Both the position numbers and the translations under genes were made by a program. A stretch of DNA of 64,000 nt, taken from NCBI GenBank assembly GCA_019973575.1, contig BPUI01000001.1, positions 372,001 through 436,000 of the forward strand, read 5' to 3'. Shown here in pieces: positions 7,057 through 58,713 of the stretch. The stretch comes from Gemmatimonadetes bacterium T265 (GTDB lineage: Bacteria; Gemmatimonadota; Gemmatimonadetes; Gemmatimonadales; Gemmatimonadaceae). Numbering within the stretch: the first letter of the stretch is position 1; every line of letters starts with the position of its first letter. The notes under the pieces were generated by a model. The model saw only the letters and a program-made list of their open reading frames with translations, had not been told where the DNA came from and searched no databases.

Positions 7057-8583
<1,527 letters not shown>

Positions 8584-10667: not shown

Positions 10668-12050
10668 ATGGACATCCAGATCACCCCCAAGGAGTCGGCC
10701 GGCGTCGAGCGGCACCTCGACGTGTCGATTCCGCCCGAAGCCGTCGCGGCGGCCGAGGACAAGACCGCGCGCCGGTACACGTCGCAGGCGCGACTCCCCG
10801 GCTTCCGCCCCGGCAAGGCGCCCGCAGGCCTCGTGCGCAAGCGCTTCGCGAACGAGATCCGCCAGGAGACGCTGCAGGGCCTCGTGCAGGACGCGTATCA
10901 GCAGCTGGTCGAGCAGGAGAAGCTCGACTTCGTGACGCAGCCGCACATCCACGACCTGAAGTTCGAGCCGGGCACGCCGCTCACCTTCACGTTCCACGTC
11001 GAGGTGCGCCCGGAGGTCACGCTCGACCGCGTCGAGGGCTTCGAGGTCGAGCGCGGGGCGACCGAGGTGACGGACGCGATGCTCACGCAGCAGCTCGACC
11101 AGATGCGCGAGCAGCGCGCGGCGTGGGTGCCGGTCGAGGAGGCGCCGCAGAGCGGCGACCGCGTCACACTCGACCTCTCGGTGCAGGAGAACGAGCCGGG
11201 CGAGGGCGAGGCGGTGGAGATGAGCGAGCCGCAGCAGTTCGACGTGGTCGTCGGCCAGGGGCAGGCGATCCCGGCGGTCGAGTCGCTCATCACGCGCACC
11301 GCGCCCGGGCAGACGACCGAGGATGCGGTGACCTGGCCCGACGATTTCCCCGTCGAATCGGAGCGCGGCAAGTCGAAGCGCGTCCGCGTACACGTGAAGG
11401 AGGTCAAGCGCAAGCAGCCGCCCGTGCTCGACGATGCGTTCGCGCGCGAGGTCGGCGACTTCGACTCGCTCGACGCGCTGACGACCGCAGTGCGCGGCGA
11501 CCTCGGGGCGCAGCTCGTGCGCGACGTCGACGCGGAGGTGCGAAGCAAGCTGCTCGACCAGATCATCGAGGCGAACCCGTTCGACGTGCCGCCGTCGTGG
11601 GTCGCGAACCTCGCCAACGGCTACGCCGAGGCGTACCAGATTCCGGAGAAGGACCGGGCGCAGTTCGCGCAGCAGTTCCGCCCGCTGGCCGAGCGGCAGG
11701 TGCGACGCGACGTCGTCGTCGACGCGCTCGCGAAGGCGCACGGCCTGCAGGCGAGTGCGGCCGACGTGGACGCCGAGATCGAGACGCTCGCGCGGGCGCG
11801 GAACCAGGAGCCCGGGCAGTTCTACGCCGCGATGCAGAAGGCCAACCGGCTGAACGAGATCGAGCACGGGCTGACCGAGCGCAAGGCGTTCGAGTGGCTC
11901 CTGGCGCGGAACACGGTGCGGCAGGGCGCGGCCGGTGAGTCGGCCGCGGACACGGGCGACGTGACCGCCGGCGCGCCGCCCGGGGCCGCGGTGACGGTCG
12001 AGGACGCGCCCGCGGAGACGGCCGGACCCGAGGGCGGGGTCGCGGAGTAA
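10668..12050 (+). CDS. tig: Trigger factor (ribosome-associated peptidyl-prolyl isomerase chaperone)
   Basis: 460 aa from the ATG at 10668. The N-terminal ribosome-binding domain contains the signature GFRPGKAP. The central FKBP-type PPIase region is around SGDRVTLDLSV, where the FKBP pocket looks weakly conserved. The C-terminal helical chaperone domain covers about 270-430. A low-complexity acidic tail ends the protein. It binds nascent chains at the ribosome exit tunnel. It heads the tig-clpP-clpX-lon order, a classic bacterial protein-quality-control arrangement. Confidence 0.96.
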   Translation: MDIQITPKESAGVERHLDVSIPPEAVAAAEDKTARRYTSQARLPGFRPGKAPAGLVRKRFANEIRQETLQGLVQDAYQQLVEQEKLDFVTQPHIHDLKFEPGTPLTFTFHVEVRPEVTLDRVEGFEVERGATEVTDAMLTQQLDQMREQRAAWVPVEEAPQSGDRVTLDLSVQENEPGEGEAVEMSEPQQFDVVVGQGQAIPAVESLITRTAPGQTTEDAVTWPDDFPVESERGKSKRVRVHVKEVKRKQPPVLDDAFAREVGDFDSLDALTTAVRGDLGAQLVRDVDAEVRSKLLDQIIEANPFDVPPSWVANLANGYAEAYQIPEKDRAQFAQQFRPLAERQVRRDVVVDALAKAHGLQASAADVDAEIETLARARNQEPGQFYAAMQKANRLNEIEHGLTERKAFEWLLARNTVRQGAAGESAADTGDVTAGAPPGAAVTVEDAPAETAGPEGGVAE

Positions 12051-53562: not shown

Positions 53563-53741
53563 CGGGCCGGTGACGTCACAGGTCCTCGCCCGGAAGCGGG
53601 CACTGCTGGCGTAGCGAGCCGCCGGCACCACCGCCCAGATCCGGGACCGTTCATCTCCGCTTCTTAGCGCCGACTCAGTTGGCCGGGGACCCGGGCGTCG
53701 GGTAGTGCCGTGTGCAGCCAGCTTGCTCACGGAGAGTCATC

Positions 53742-55226
53742 ATGCGCCCGTCGCTCCCTTCGGTCATTCCAACGCCGCTCCGCGCGGTCCCGCGCGTGTT
53801 CCGAGCCGTGCTTCAGGTCGCCGTCTCTGCGCTCGCCGCGTGCGGCGGCGACAACTCGGCGAGTCGCGTCACCGGCTCGGGTGGCGCGGGCGGGTCCGGC
53901 GGCATTTCCGGACCGGTGCGCCCCGAACTGGGCAAGATCCAGCACATCGTCGTCATCATGCAGGAAAACCGGTCCTTCGACCACTACTTCGGCACCTTCC
54001 CCGGGGCGAACGGGATCCCGATGCAGAACGGGGTGCCGACGGTGTGCGTGCCGGACCCGGCCAGGAAGGGCACGTGCGTCCGCCCGTACCACCTGAGCGC
54101 CGACAAGAACAACGGCGGCCCGCACATGCAGACCGACGCGACCGCGGACGTCGCCGGCGGGCAAATGAGCGGCTTCATCGCGCAGGCCGAGAAGAGCCAG
54201 AAGGGGTGCGCCGACCCCGCCGACCCGGCGTGCTCGGGCGCCGGCGCGATCGACGTGATGGGCTACCACGACGACCGCGAGATCCCGAACTACTGGGCGT
54301 ACGCGAAGAATTACGTGCTCCAGGACGCGATGTTCGAGCCGAACGCGTCGTGGAGCCTCCCGGCACACCTCTTCATGGTGAGCGAGTGGTCGGCCTACTG
54401 CGCCACGCCCGACGTTCCGTCGAGCTGCCGGAACGCGCTCCAGTCGCCTAACAATCCCGGGAGCGCGCAGGGGTCGTACGCGTGGACCGACCTCACGTAC
54501 CTGCTGCACAAGGCGGGGGTGAGCTGGAAGTACTACGTCGCGGAGGGGACGCAGCCCGACTGCGACGACGACGCGGCCGTCTGCCCGCCCAAGCCGCAGT
54601 GGGCGACCGTGCCCGGCATCTGGAACCCGCTGCTGCTCTTCACCACCGTGCGGCAGGACAGCCAGCTCGTGAACGTCCAGACGCTCGACCACTTCGACGC
54701 CGACGCGCGGAACGGGACCCTGCCGGCGGTATCGTGGGTCATCCCGAACGGCGACGTGAGCGAGCACCCGGTCTCGCTCGTGAGCAACGGGCAGGCGTAC
54801 GTAACGAGCGTCGTCAACGCCGTCATGCAGAGCCCCAACTGGGGCAGCACGGCGATCTTCCTGGCGTGGGACGACTGGGGCGGCTTCTACGACCACGTCA
54901 CGCCGCCGCACGTGGACGGGAACGGCTACGGGTTGCGCGTGCCCGGGATCGTCATCAGCCCGTACGCCAGGCACGGCTACGTCGACCACCAGACGCTCAG
55001 CTTCGACGCCTACGCGAAGTTCATCGAGGACGTCTTCCTGAAGGGCGCGCGCCTCGACCCCGCGACCGACGGCCGCGCCGACCCGCGCCCGGACGTGCGC
55101 GAGGCGGCCCCCACGTTAGGCGACCTGTCGAACGACTTCGACTTCGCGCAGGCGCCGCGCACGCCGACGGTCCTCCGCGCGCCGCCGCTCCGGTCGCTGC
55201 TGCCGCGGCTGGTGCACCCGCGGTGA
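53742..55226 (+). CDS. Lipoprotein phosphoesterase (phospholipase C / acid phosphatase AcpA-like)
   Basis: 494 aa from ATG 53742, preceded by GGAGAG at 53731. The N-terminus carries a lipobox (SALAACGGD). The PF04185 phosphoesterase domain begins [21 protein letters not shown] and contains [35 protein letters not shown] and [14 protein letters not shown], with conserved Asp, His and Glu metal residues. It probably hydrolyses phosphate esters or phospholipids outside the cytoplasm. A 16-bp tandem repeat starts 6 bp after its stop. Confidence 0.88.
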
Positions 55227-55231
55227 CGGGC

Positions 55232-55511
55232 GGGGGCGCGTCACCCCGGGGGCGCGTCACCCCGGGGGCGCGTCACCCCGGGGGCGCGTCACCCCGGGGG
55301 CGCGTCACCCCGGGGGCGCGTCACCCCGGGGGCGCGTCACCCCGGGGGCGCGTCACCCCGGGGCGCGTCACCCCGGGGGCGCGTCACCCCGGGGGCGCGT
55401 CACCCCGGGGGCGCGTCACCCCGGGGGCGCGTCACCCCGGGGGCGCGTCACCCCGGGGGCGCGTCACCCCGGGGGCGCGTCACCCCGGGGGCGCGTCACC
55501 CCGGGGGCGCG
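55232..55511. repeat. Tandem array of 17 copies of a 16-bp unit
   Basis: The unit CGCGTCACCCCGGGGG starts at 55237 and repeats to about 55507 with no sequence change except one copy (55349-55363) that has lost a G (15 bp). Each unit contains the palindrome CCCCGGGG. The array fills the space between convergent genes. It supplies the stop codon (TCA on plus, TGA on minus) and last residues of the minus-strand fused gene. Near-identity of copies points to recent expansion. Confidence 0.97.
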
Positions 55512-56026
55512 CGCTTGCGCCGCAGCAGCGCCTGCTGCGCCGGCGCGCCCTGGTGCGCGAGCGCGCGGTCGAGGTACGCGCGCGCTTCGGCGAGGTTGCC
55601 TAACGATGCGTGCAGGTCCGCGTACGCGGCGAGCGCGTACGGGTAGCGGGCGAGCACCTCGCGCTCGGGGATCGCGTCGAGTTCGTCGAGGCCGGCGGGC
55701 GCGCCGCCGTGCATCGCCACCGCGAGCGCGCGGTTCACGTCGACGACGAGCGACGGGGCGACCGCGCGCAGCAGGTCGTAGCGCCCGACGACGCGCGCCC
55801 AGTCGCACGTGCTGCCGTCTGTGCCCCGCTCGTACCAGCGGCCGCCCACGCGCGGCTCGAGCACCACGTCGGCGATCGGCGCCCGCATCGGGTTCACGGA
55901 AAGGAGCGAGTCCCACCAGTCGCGCAGGTGGGTCGTGAAGAGGTCGAACGCGCGTGCCGGGTCGACGGGCACGTGGATCGTTTGCCGGACGGAGGCCAGC
56001 TCGGTCGCGGACGTCGACAGGGTCAT
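55496..56026 (-). CDS. SRPBCC (AHSA1-like) N-terminus fused to the C-terminus of an ECF sigma factor
   Basis: 176 aa from ATG 56026. Residues ~1-75 ([19 protein letters not shown] ... [17 protein letters not shown]) are the first half of an SRPBCC/AHSA1 lipid-binding-like domain. From [20 protein letters not shown] on, the sequence switches to the C-terminal TPR-like tail of the DUF6596/SigJ-type ECF sigma factors ([15 protein letters not shown] ... [18 protein letters not shown]). The SRPBCC family normally has CDWGRV and the sigma family TDWxxIV at this point, so the junction lies at a shared Asp-Trp. Sigma regions 2 and 4 and the rest of the SRPBCC barrel are gone; function is unlikely. 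Confidence 0.8.
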
Positions 56027-56388
56027 CGGTTCGGCGCTTGGATGGCCCACGCGGGCATGGTCTCGCGGTCGCGGCGACGGCGTTGCCGTCGCCGCGACCG
56101 CGAGTGTCTTTGAAGACGTACGGGCGCGACGCGACTCGACATCTGCCCGCCGGGCGCGCCGGGAATTTCGCGTGATCGCCGATCCGTGCGGTGGGCGAGA
56201 GCGACGTGCGGGCTGCCCCGAGAACGGTTCCGTGCGCAGGCACTCGACGTCCTCCCCAGACATCGTCCCCAGACCCGACGGGCTCGCGCCCGCGCCGATC
56301 CGCGATACGTTCGACACGCTGACCGCCGCCGGAGCCGCGCCGCCGCTTCGGCTGGTCCACCCCCGTCCCACCTGACTGGAGCGTTCGG
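56027..56388. other. 362-bp gene-free spacer upstream of the TonB receptor
   Basis: Divergent spacer between the fused SRPBCC/sigma gene and the TonB-receptor gene. It holds a perfect 19-bp hairpin (56062-56104) and no recognisable gene, Fur box or cobalamin riboswitch. A weak RBS-like TGGAG lies about 10 bp before the receptor ATG. Confidence 0.6.
56062..56104. terminator. Perfect 19-bp hairpin
   Basis: Arms 56062-56080 and 56086-56104 are exact inverted copies (left arm begins CTCGCGGTCGCGGCG) around a 5-base loop CGTTG. It lies 36 bp upstream of the fused gene's ATG on the minus strand and 285 bp before the TonB receptor on plus. A short TGTCTTT follows on plus. It could be a terminator left from a deleted gene, or a leader hairpin. 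Confidence 0.6.
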
Positions 56389-58713
56389 ATGCCCGGAGTG
56401 CGACACCTGTTCGGCGCGGCGCCGGCGGCGATCGCGTGCGTCGCGGGGCTCGCCGCGACCGCGCGGGCGCAGTCGACCAACGGAACGCTGATCACCGGAA
56501 CGGTCGCGAGCGCGCGGGCCCCGGTCGTCGGCGCCACGGTGCGCCTCGTCGAGCTCGACCGCGTGACGCGCACCGACGCGCGGGGCGAGTTCCGCTTCGC
56601 CGACCTGCCGCGCGGCACGTATCGCGTGTTCGTGATCGTGCCGGGCTTCGCCGCGGCGAGCGCGCGGGTCGTGGTCGGCGCCGCGGGCGCGCCGGCCCCG
56701 GTCGCCTTCGCGCTCACGCCATCGGCCGTCCCGCTTCAGGAGGTGGTCGTCTCCGCGTCCCCGGTCGCGCGCCCGGCCGCCGAAGAGGTGCAGTCGACGG
56801 CCTCGAAGGGGCGGGTCGCGCTGCTCGACAGTCCGGGGGCGAGCTTCGCCGAGAAGCTCGCCGACGTCCCGGGCGTGACCGTGCGCCAGAACGGCTCGGC
56901 CCCGTCGCGCCCGATCCTGCGCGGCCTCGGCGACAACGAGGTGCTCGTGCTCGAGAACGGCCTGCGCACGGGCGACATCGCGACCTACGACCCCGCGCAC
57001 GCGACGCCGATCGAGGCGATCGGGGTCGCGCAGGTCGACGTGGTGCGCGGCCCGGCGACGATCCTCTACGGCCCGAGCACGATCGGCGGCGTGGTGAACG
57101 TGATCACGAGCATGATCCCGGAGGTCGCCGACCACCCCCTCTCGGGTACGGTAGCGGCGGAGGGCAACACCGTGAACGACCAGGCGGCCGGCTACGTCAA
57201 CGCGGTCGCGAGCGGCGAGCACCAGGCGTTCCGCCTCTCCGCCGGCGGCGTGCACGCGCAGGACACCCGCATCCCCGCGGGCGTCTACACCGACCCGGCG
57301 AGCGGCGCGGCCTTCGACCTCCGCCGCCTCCCGCAGACCTTCGACCGCAGCGCGGAGGCGGGCGCGGGCTACGCGTACCAGGGCGGCTTCGGCTCGGCCG
57401 GCGTCGGGTTCAAGCACTACGAGATGAACTACGGCATCCCGGGCGTGCCGCCCAACGCCGACTTCGAAGCGGCGCCGCCGACCACCTCGCGGATCGCGCA
57501 GCGGCGGAACACGCTCGAGGGGCGCGCCCTGTTCGCGGGCGACGGCGCGGTCGCGCAGCAGTGGCGCGTGACCGCGAGCTACAACGACTACACGCACTCC
57601 GAGTTCCCGACCGCGCAGGACTCGACCGGCGTCTCGTCGCCGCAGGCCAACCACTTCCACAAGCGCGAGCTGAACGCCGTCGTGCAGCTCCAGCACCGCC
57701 CCGTCGGCCGGCTCACCGGCACGTTAGGCCTGTGGACCGACGTCCAGGACCTGACGATCGCCGGCGACCAGCCGTTGGGCCCCAACTCGCGGACGACCGG
57801 GGTCGCGGGCTACGCCTTCGAGGAGTACCAGGCGGACGCGGCCACCCGGCTGCAGGGCGCCGTGCGGTACGACTACAACGGCATCCGGACGCGGCCGTAC
57901 CCCGCGTCCACCGACTCGGTCTTCCAGACGCTCCGCGCGTCCCGCCGCTCCGACGCCGTCACCGCGTCGCTCGGCGCGATCCGGCAGCTCACCCCGCACG
58001 TCACGGGCACGTTCAGCGTCGCCCGCTCGTTCCGCGCCCCGACCGTGCAGGAGCTGTTCGCGAACGGGCTCGACGCCGCGAGCGGGACGTACTCGGTCGG
58101 CACCGCGGGCCTCGGCCCCGAGACGGGGCTCGGCGTGGACGCGTCGCTCCGCGGGACCTTCGACCGCGTCACGTTCGCCGTGTCCCCGTTCGCCAACACG
58201 ATCCACCACTATATCTACGGGTTCCTCCGCGGCGACACGATCCAGGCGTTCCCCGTCCGCCAGTTCGCCGCGACCGACGCGCGCCTGTTAGGCGGGGAGG
58301 CGAGCCTGAGCGTGCAGCCGGCCGAGCACGTCGCGCTCGGCGCGGCCACCGACTACGTGCGCGCGGAGGACACCGACCACCACGTGCCGCTCCCGTTCAT
58401 CCCGCCGCTCCGCGGGCTGCTCCGCGGGACGTACGAGGACCAGACCTACCGCGGCACCGTCGAGTGGCGCCTCGCCGCGCGCCAGACGCGGCTCGGCGAC
58501 GGCGACACGCCGACCGGCGGCTACGGCGTGGTGAACGTCGGCGCGGGCGTGCGGTTCGTGCAGCGCGGCGCGCGCGAGGGCGTCGTGCACCACCTCGCGC
58601 TGCACGTCGACAACGTGTTCAACCGCGTCTACCGCGACAACCTGTCGGTCATCAAGGACTTCCTGCCGCAGCCGGGGCGCGGGGTCCGCCTGACCTACGA
58701 GCTCGCGTACTGA
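56389..58713 (+). CDS. TonB-dependent outer-membrane receptor
   Basis: 774 aa with a signal peptide (to about residue 28, ATARAQ). A carboxypeptidase-regulatory-like beta-sandwich (about 30-115: GTVASARAPVVGATVRLVEL) precedes the plug domain (about 120-250: FAEKLADVPGVTVRQNG, RGPATILYGPSTIGGVVNVIT) and a 22-strand-type barrel ending in tyrosine (LTYELAY). It imports a siderophore, metal complex or other ligand using TonB energy. The ligand is not evident. Its stop overlaps the start of the DUF2278 gene (TGATG), so the two are probably co-translated. Confidence 0.93.
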   Translation: MPGVRHLFGAAPAAIACVAGLAATARAQSTNGTLITGTVASARAPVVGATVRLVELDRVTRTDARGEFRFADLPRGTYRVFVIVPGFAAASARVVVGAAGAPAPVAFALTPSAVPLQEVVVSASPVARPAAEEVQSTASKGRVALLDSPGASFAEKLADVPGVTVRQNGSAPSRPILRGLGDNEVLVLENGLRTGDIATYDPAHATPIEAIGVAQVDVVRGPATILYGPSTIGGVVNVITSMIPEVADHPLSGTVAAEGNTVNDQAAGYVNAVASGEHQAFRLSAGGVHAQDTRIPAGVYTDPASGAAFDLRRLPQTFDRSAEAGAGYAYQGGFGSAGVGFKHYEMNYGIPGVPPNADFEAAPPTTSRIAQRRNTLEGRALFAGDGAVAQQWRVTASYNDYTHSEFPTAQDSTGVSSPQANHFHKRELNAVVQLQHRPVGRLTGTLGLWTDVQDLTIAGDQPLGPNSRTTGVAGYAFEEYQADAATRLQGAVRYDYNGIRTRPYPASTDSVFQTLRASRRSDAVTASLGAIRQLTPHVTGTFSVARSFRAPTVQELFANGLDAASGTYSVGTAGLGPETGLGVDASLRGTFDRVTFAVSPFANTIHHYIYGFLRGDTIQAFPVRQFAATDARLLGGEASLSVQPAEHVALGAATDYVRAEDTDHHVPLPFIPPLRGLLRGTYEDQTYRGTVEWRLAARQTRLGDGDTPTGGYGVVNVGAGVRFVQRGAREGVVHHLALHVDNVFNRVYRDNLSVIKDFLPQPGRGVRLTYELAY

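Follow-up and report, generated by a model that had tools for sequence, protein, structure and literature searches.

An open reading frame of 176 amino acids at 55496–56026 (minus strand), in the 64,000-nucleotide stretch of Gemmatimonadetes bacterium T265 DNA analysed here (the window), joins the beginning of an SRPBCC protein to the end of an ECF42-type sigma factor. The two parents are found as separate genes of one intact cluster in relatives, the middle of that cluster is missing from the T265 genome, and the fusion itself occurs in a single genome. By far the best explanation, in which we have considerable confidence, is that a deletion of ~2.0–2.2 kb within an SRPBCC–YCII–sigma cluster made the chimeric frame, the product of which is most likely inactive, a recent pseudogene. 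The mode of deletion, the loss of function and the recency of the event are what we infer from the evidence described below.

Two parents in one reading frame

Translation and family searches, in which matches cover one half at a time, divide the protein into residues ~1–80, of the AHSA1/SRPBCC type, and residues ~75–172, which correspond to the TPR-like tail of an ECF42-type sigma factor; the two families are unrelated. Amino acid identity to relatives, together with DNA alignment for the first part, places the SRPBCC-derived codons 1–74 at 55805–56026 and the sigma tail, the TPR-like part after DUF6596, at 55510–55789, both on the minus strand. Essentially every strong match in 59 relatives and in the genome_contigs collection covers either residues ~1–82 (SRPBCC; best 69%) or residues ~65–174 (sigma tail; best 81%), the same pattern is seen within the genome itself, and the change of family falls at residues 75–82. 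No strong match spans both families in the own genome, the 59 relatives or the genome_contigs collection. The in-frame fusion of an SRPBCC N-terminus to an ECF sigma factor C-terminus, proposed in the initial annotation, is borne out by this half-and-half homology. A conserved family with the same full-length architecture was also looked for, and none was found in the 59 relatives, the genome_contigs collection or the 178 other genomes of the family.

Three genomes of the same family as T265, represented by contigs L024 (genome G130), L025 (G241) and L071 (G193), have the two parents as separate genes, with strand and cluster in common. L024 and L025 are MAG contigs that were first picked up through the sigma tail, the SRPBCC parent then being seen upstream on the same strand; a phylum-wide draw and a search of the whole family gave the same two genomes and added the third. 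The gene order in all three is SRPBCC (a ~330-amino acid gene with two AHSA1 domains, of which the fusion keeps the first quarter), YCII and sigma, and both halves of the fusion are matched in place in each cluster, 2.0–2.2 kb apart. The SRPBCC part shares 69% of its amino acids with L025, 60% with L024 and 57% with L071, and the sigma tail 81% with L024, 80% with L025 and 71% with L071 (residues 75–172, or 75–153 for L025). Strong matches to both halves were obtained in three of the 178 other genomes of the family, all of them unfused, and the fusion itself in none. The earlier expectation that SRPBCC and DUF6596 sigma genes would be neighbours holds in that they share a strand and a cluster in three genomes, but a YCII gene lies between them and they are not directly adjacent. 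The expected synteny with the flanking phosphoesterase and TonB receptor failed, as neither gene stands beside the cluster in the three relatives.

Domain searches were weak for the fusion (Pfam TPR_14, E 0.002, and Polyketide_cyc2, E 0.08) and clear for the intact relatives, which carry AHSA1 (1e-35), YCII (1e-12), DUF6596 (1e-29) and sigma regions 2 and 4; the family assignment therefore rests on the intact relatives. In L024 and L025 the scans returned two AHSA1 stretches, sigma regions 2 and 4, and DUF6596 with a TPR-like end, the YCII protein being scanned in L024. An NCBIfam search of the fusion gave no matches, and a scan of viral_contigs no relative of it.

The join, the missing segment and the flanks

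Protein and DNA alignments agree on the position of the break, namely the DWARV motif at which the initial annotation had put the change of family. The junction zone, GAC TGG GCG CGC GTC at 55790–55804 (minus strand), is alike in the two parents, so that the breakpoint lies within it: SRPBCC DNA similarity reaches down to 55804 from the 5' side, and a perfect run of 19 bp with the L024 sigma gene begins at 55804 on the minus strand. Both parents read [E/D]-W-x-x-[V/I] here, as had been claimed. SRPBCC codon ~75 would have been joined to the sigma-tail codon for the same D-W-x-x-V motif, and the frame would have been kept because the motifs pair in register.

The proposal of a deletion through short homology fares well as to the deletion, and its homology can be only partly recovered from living relatives, in which the in-register parental match at the join amounts to 10–13 of 18 bases with exact runs no longer than 7 bp. 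No exact repeat at the join reaches 9 bp in any of the relatives, and longer exact repeats between the SRPBCC and sigma genes exist elsewhere. A match of 13 in 18 is reached by 0.06–0.08% of all position pairs in L025 and L024, and one of 10 in 18 by 2.4% in L071; the match at the join is thus uncommon among position pairs, and a join guided by homology is likely. The microhomology used would have been short, and replication slippage, single-strand annealing or end joining at such an imperfect match is the probable mechanism. Judged from the spacing in the relatives, the corresponding loss is 2192 bp (L024), 2160 bp (L025) or 2021 bp (L071), from which the estimate of ~2.0–2.2 kb for the deletion is taken.

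The loss of the sigma DNA-binding regions and of most of the barrel had been foreseen and is confirmed. Sigma-70 regions 2 and 4 are present in the parents and absent from the fusion by Pfam. The same is true of DUF6596 (PF20239; residues 218–319 in L024 and 344–445 in L025), so that the description of the tail as that of a DUF6596 sigma factor is right for the sequence after this domain, although the domain itself has also gone; only the distal part of the TPR-like C-terminal extension is left, with weak TPR matches. The fusion lacks a complete helix-grip barrel domain, and there is no YCII gene at its locus. In all, the deletion would have taken with it the remainder of the two AHSA1 domains, the entire YCII gene and, from the sigma gene, regions 2 and 4 with DUF6596.

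Searches with the L024 parents revealed no copy of the lost SRPBCC–YCII–sigma segment in the own genome, where the missing parts of SRPBCC and YCII also have no ortholog. The other sigma genes of this genome are 35–43% identical to the L024 sigma parent, and their tails only 38–44% identical to that of the fusion. Four other pairs of YCII and DUF6596-type sigma genes are present (C1:498242–499743, C1:1117152–1118761, C1:1338860–1340524 and C5:190369–192058). Within the limits of an assembly that is 97.6% complete, in 6 contigs, with the join inside a contig of 2.99 Mb, the absence of any copy indicates that the segment was lost, not moved.

Both flanks of the fused gene carry further changes. 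At its 3' end, a tandem repeat with a 16-bp unit (17.6 copies, 99% matches; 55231–55511, found with TRF) begins where sigma homology ends, at 55502–55512. This 281-bp array replaces the last sigma codons, supplies the stop codon of the fusion and occupies the space between it and the convergent phosphoesterase gene. The array, with the unit CGGGGGCGCGTCACCC, is GC-rich, folds strongly on both strands and is found nowhere else in the genome. The phosphoesterase-family gene (PF04185; window 53712–55226) has no close ortholog in the 59 relatives. On the other side, just upstream of the ATG and before the TonB receptor gene is reached, is a perfect 20-bp inverted repeat with a 3-nt loop (56062–56104); exact copies of its arms occur nowhere else in the genome. 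The window has one other perfect 20-bp inverted repeat, with a 5-nt loop, at 2922–2966.

A glyoxalase (VOC) gene precedes SRPBCC in L025 and L071, and window positions 56133–56207 (minus strand) are probably what remains of the N-terminus of such a gene. By tblastn the segment was the window's best match (48% over 25 amino acids, E 0.02), lying on the expected strand, and it was again the best in the window with a small profile (E 0.001); one control open reading frame scored nearly as high, which makes the remnant probable and not proven. Otherwise, the upstream DNA gave near-chance scores against L071, L024 and L025. In L071 there are two glyoxalase-like genes near the intact cluster (8104–8496 and 11241–11645), one of them directly upstream of SRPBCC. 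The ancestral cluster was probably glyoxalase–SRPBCC–YCII–ECF42 sigma and has since decayed, the tandem repeat covering its 3' end and the upstream glyoxalase gene probably having been truncated.

The product and its possible fates

We consider the product most likely to be inert: it would have neither the sigma parts needed for binding to core RNA polymerase and promoter nor a closed barrel. In keeping with this, AlphaFold does not predict that it folds well (pLDDT 53.7, pTM 0.42; few aligned sequences for each half), whereas the intact first SRPBCC domain of L025, modelled as a control from a similarly shallow alignment of eight sequences, gave a pLDDT of 89.9 and a pTM of 0.83, with an Aha1/polyketide-cyclase-like barrel whose Foldseek matches include CalC and Aha1 domains.

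It might instead be suggested that the deletion is real and that its small product has been retained for some function, such as that of a TPR decoy titrating the partner of the remaining ECF42 sigma factors, but we regard this as unlikely. The frame has no premature stop, conserved residues in the tail are kept as well as in intact orthologs, and branch dN/dS point estimates are 0.3–0.6 and not 1, with 90% ranges (~0.14 to 2.2) that are too imprecise to date the event. An undecayed tail and a ratio below 1 fit a recent deletion as well as retained function, and most of the divergence may predate the deletion, so that a low ratio is expected anyway. The length of the open frame is uninformative in this GC-rich DNA, where the same sequence is crossed by an overlapping open frame of >400 codons (55467–56735). 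Loss of a tryptophan (RWPS to VAPS) was considered as a sign of decay in the tail and rejected; L071 also has APS there. Apart from its poor predicted fold, the product would have to be made without the AGGAG ribosome site that is found in L071, whose start codon aligns with that of the fusion, and downstream of a strong hairpin; moreover, it is confined to one genome. Four other YCII–sigma pairs do remain in the genome, which speaks for a decoy, but the low identity of its other sigma tails to that of the fusion speaks against one. The more specific version, in which the new small protein is retained because its orphan TPR tail, held by half an SRPBCC domain, competes with the ECF42 sigma factors that remain for their partner, is less probable still.

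An assembly artefact, the true genome carrying an intact cluster, is also rather improbable. Although the fusion is known from one genome, and a repeat array and a perfect hairpin adjoin the join, the genome is in 6 contigs, the join lies inside one of 2.99 Mb, the array was assembled through, no leftover of the missing middle occurs anywhere in the assembly, and a misjoin at a ~7-bp match, exactly in register, is unlikely. That the fusion came first, and that fission or insertion then produced the unfused genes of the relatives, can be given practically no credence, for it has nothing beyond the existence of the fusion to commend it, while those genes have complete, widespread domains, SRPBCC homologs occur alone in Actinobacteria and Proteobacteria, and the middle of both genes cannot be regenerated from a fusion that lacks it.

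Comparison with known systems

ECF42 sigma factors have a TPR-rich extension to which partner binding has been ascribed, and their genes neighbour that of a YCII protein (PMC8999054; PMC9023288). Three such sigma factors end in a sequence 71–81% identical to the tail of the fusion, and the YCII neighbour described for ECF42 (PMC8999054) is also seen beside the sigma gene in the relatives. Without sigma regions 2 and 4 and DUF6596, the fusion is not a sigma factor; it has the distal extension only. A literature search on ECF42 with DGPF found no paper combining both terms with 'sigma factor'. The SRPBCC–YCII–ECF42 cluster is sparse in the family, with glyoxalase upstream in two of the three cases, and may help in finding what ECF42 sigma factors respond to. 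With AHSA1/SRPBCC proteins the fusion shares its first ~75 residues; it lacks the remaining strands and the C-terminal helix of domain 1, and the whole of domain 2.

Chimeric pseudogenes formed by deletion between neighbouring bacterial genes are a known class. The present case is a clean and well-bracketed one, in which two unrelated neighbours have yielded one open reading frame while the intact state survives in relatives; it illustrates gene decay convincingly, though it is in no way out of the ordinary, and it warns that such a frame should not be taken for a designed two-domain regulator. As in other members of the class, two neighbours are joined, the middle is lost and a single genome is affected, and nothing essential differs; the in-register D-W-x-x-V join and the repeat scars at both ends are its unusual details.
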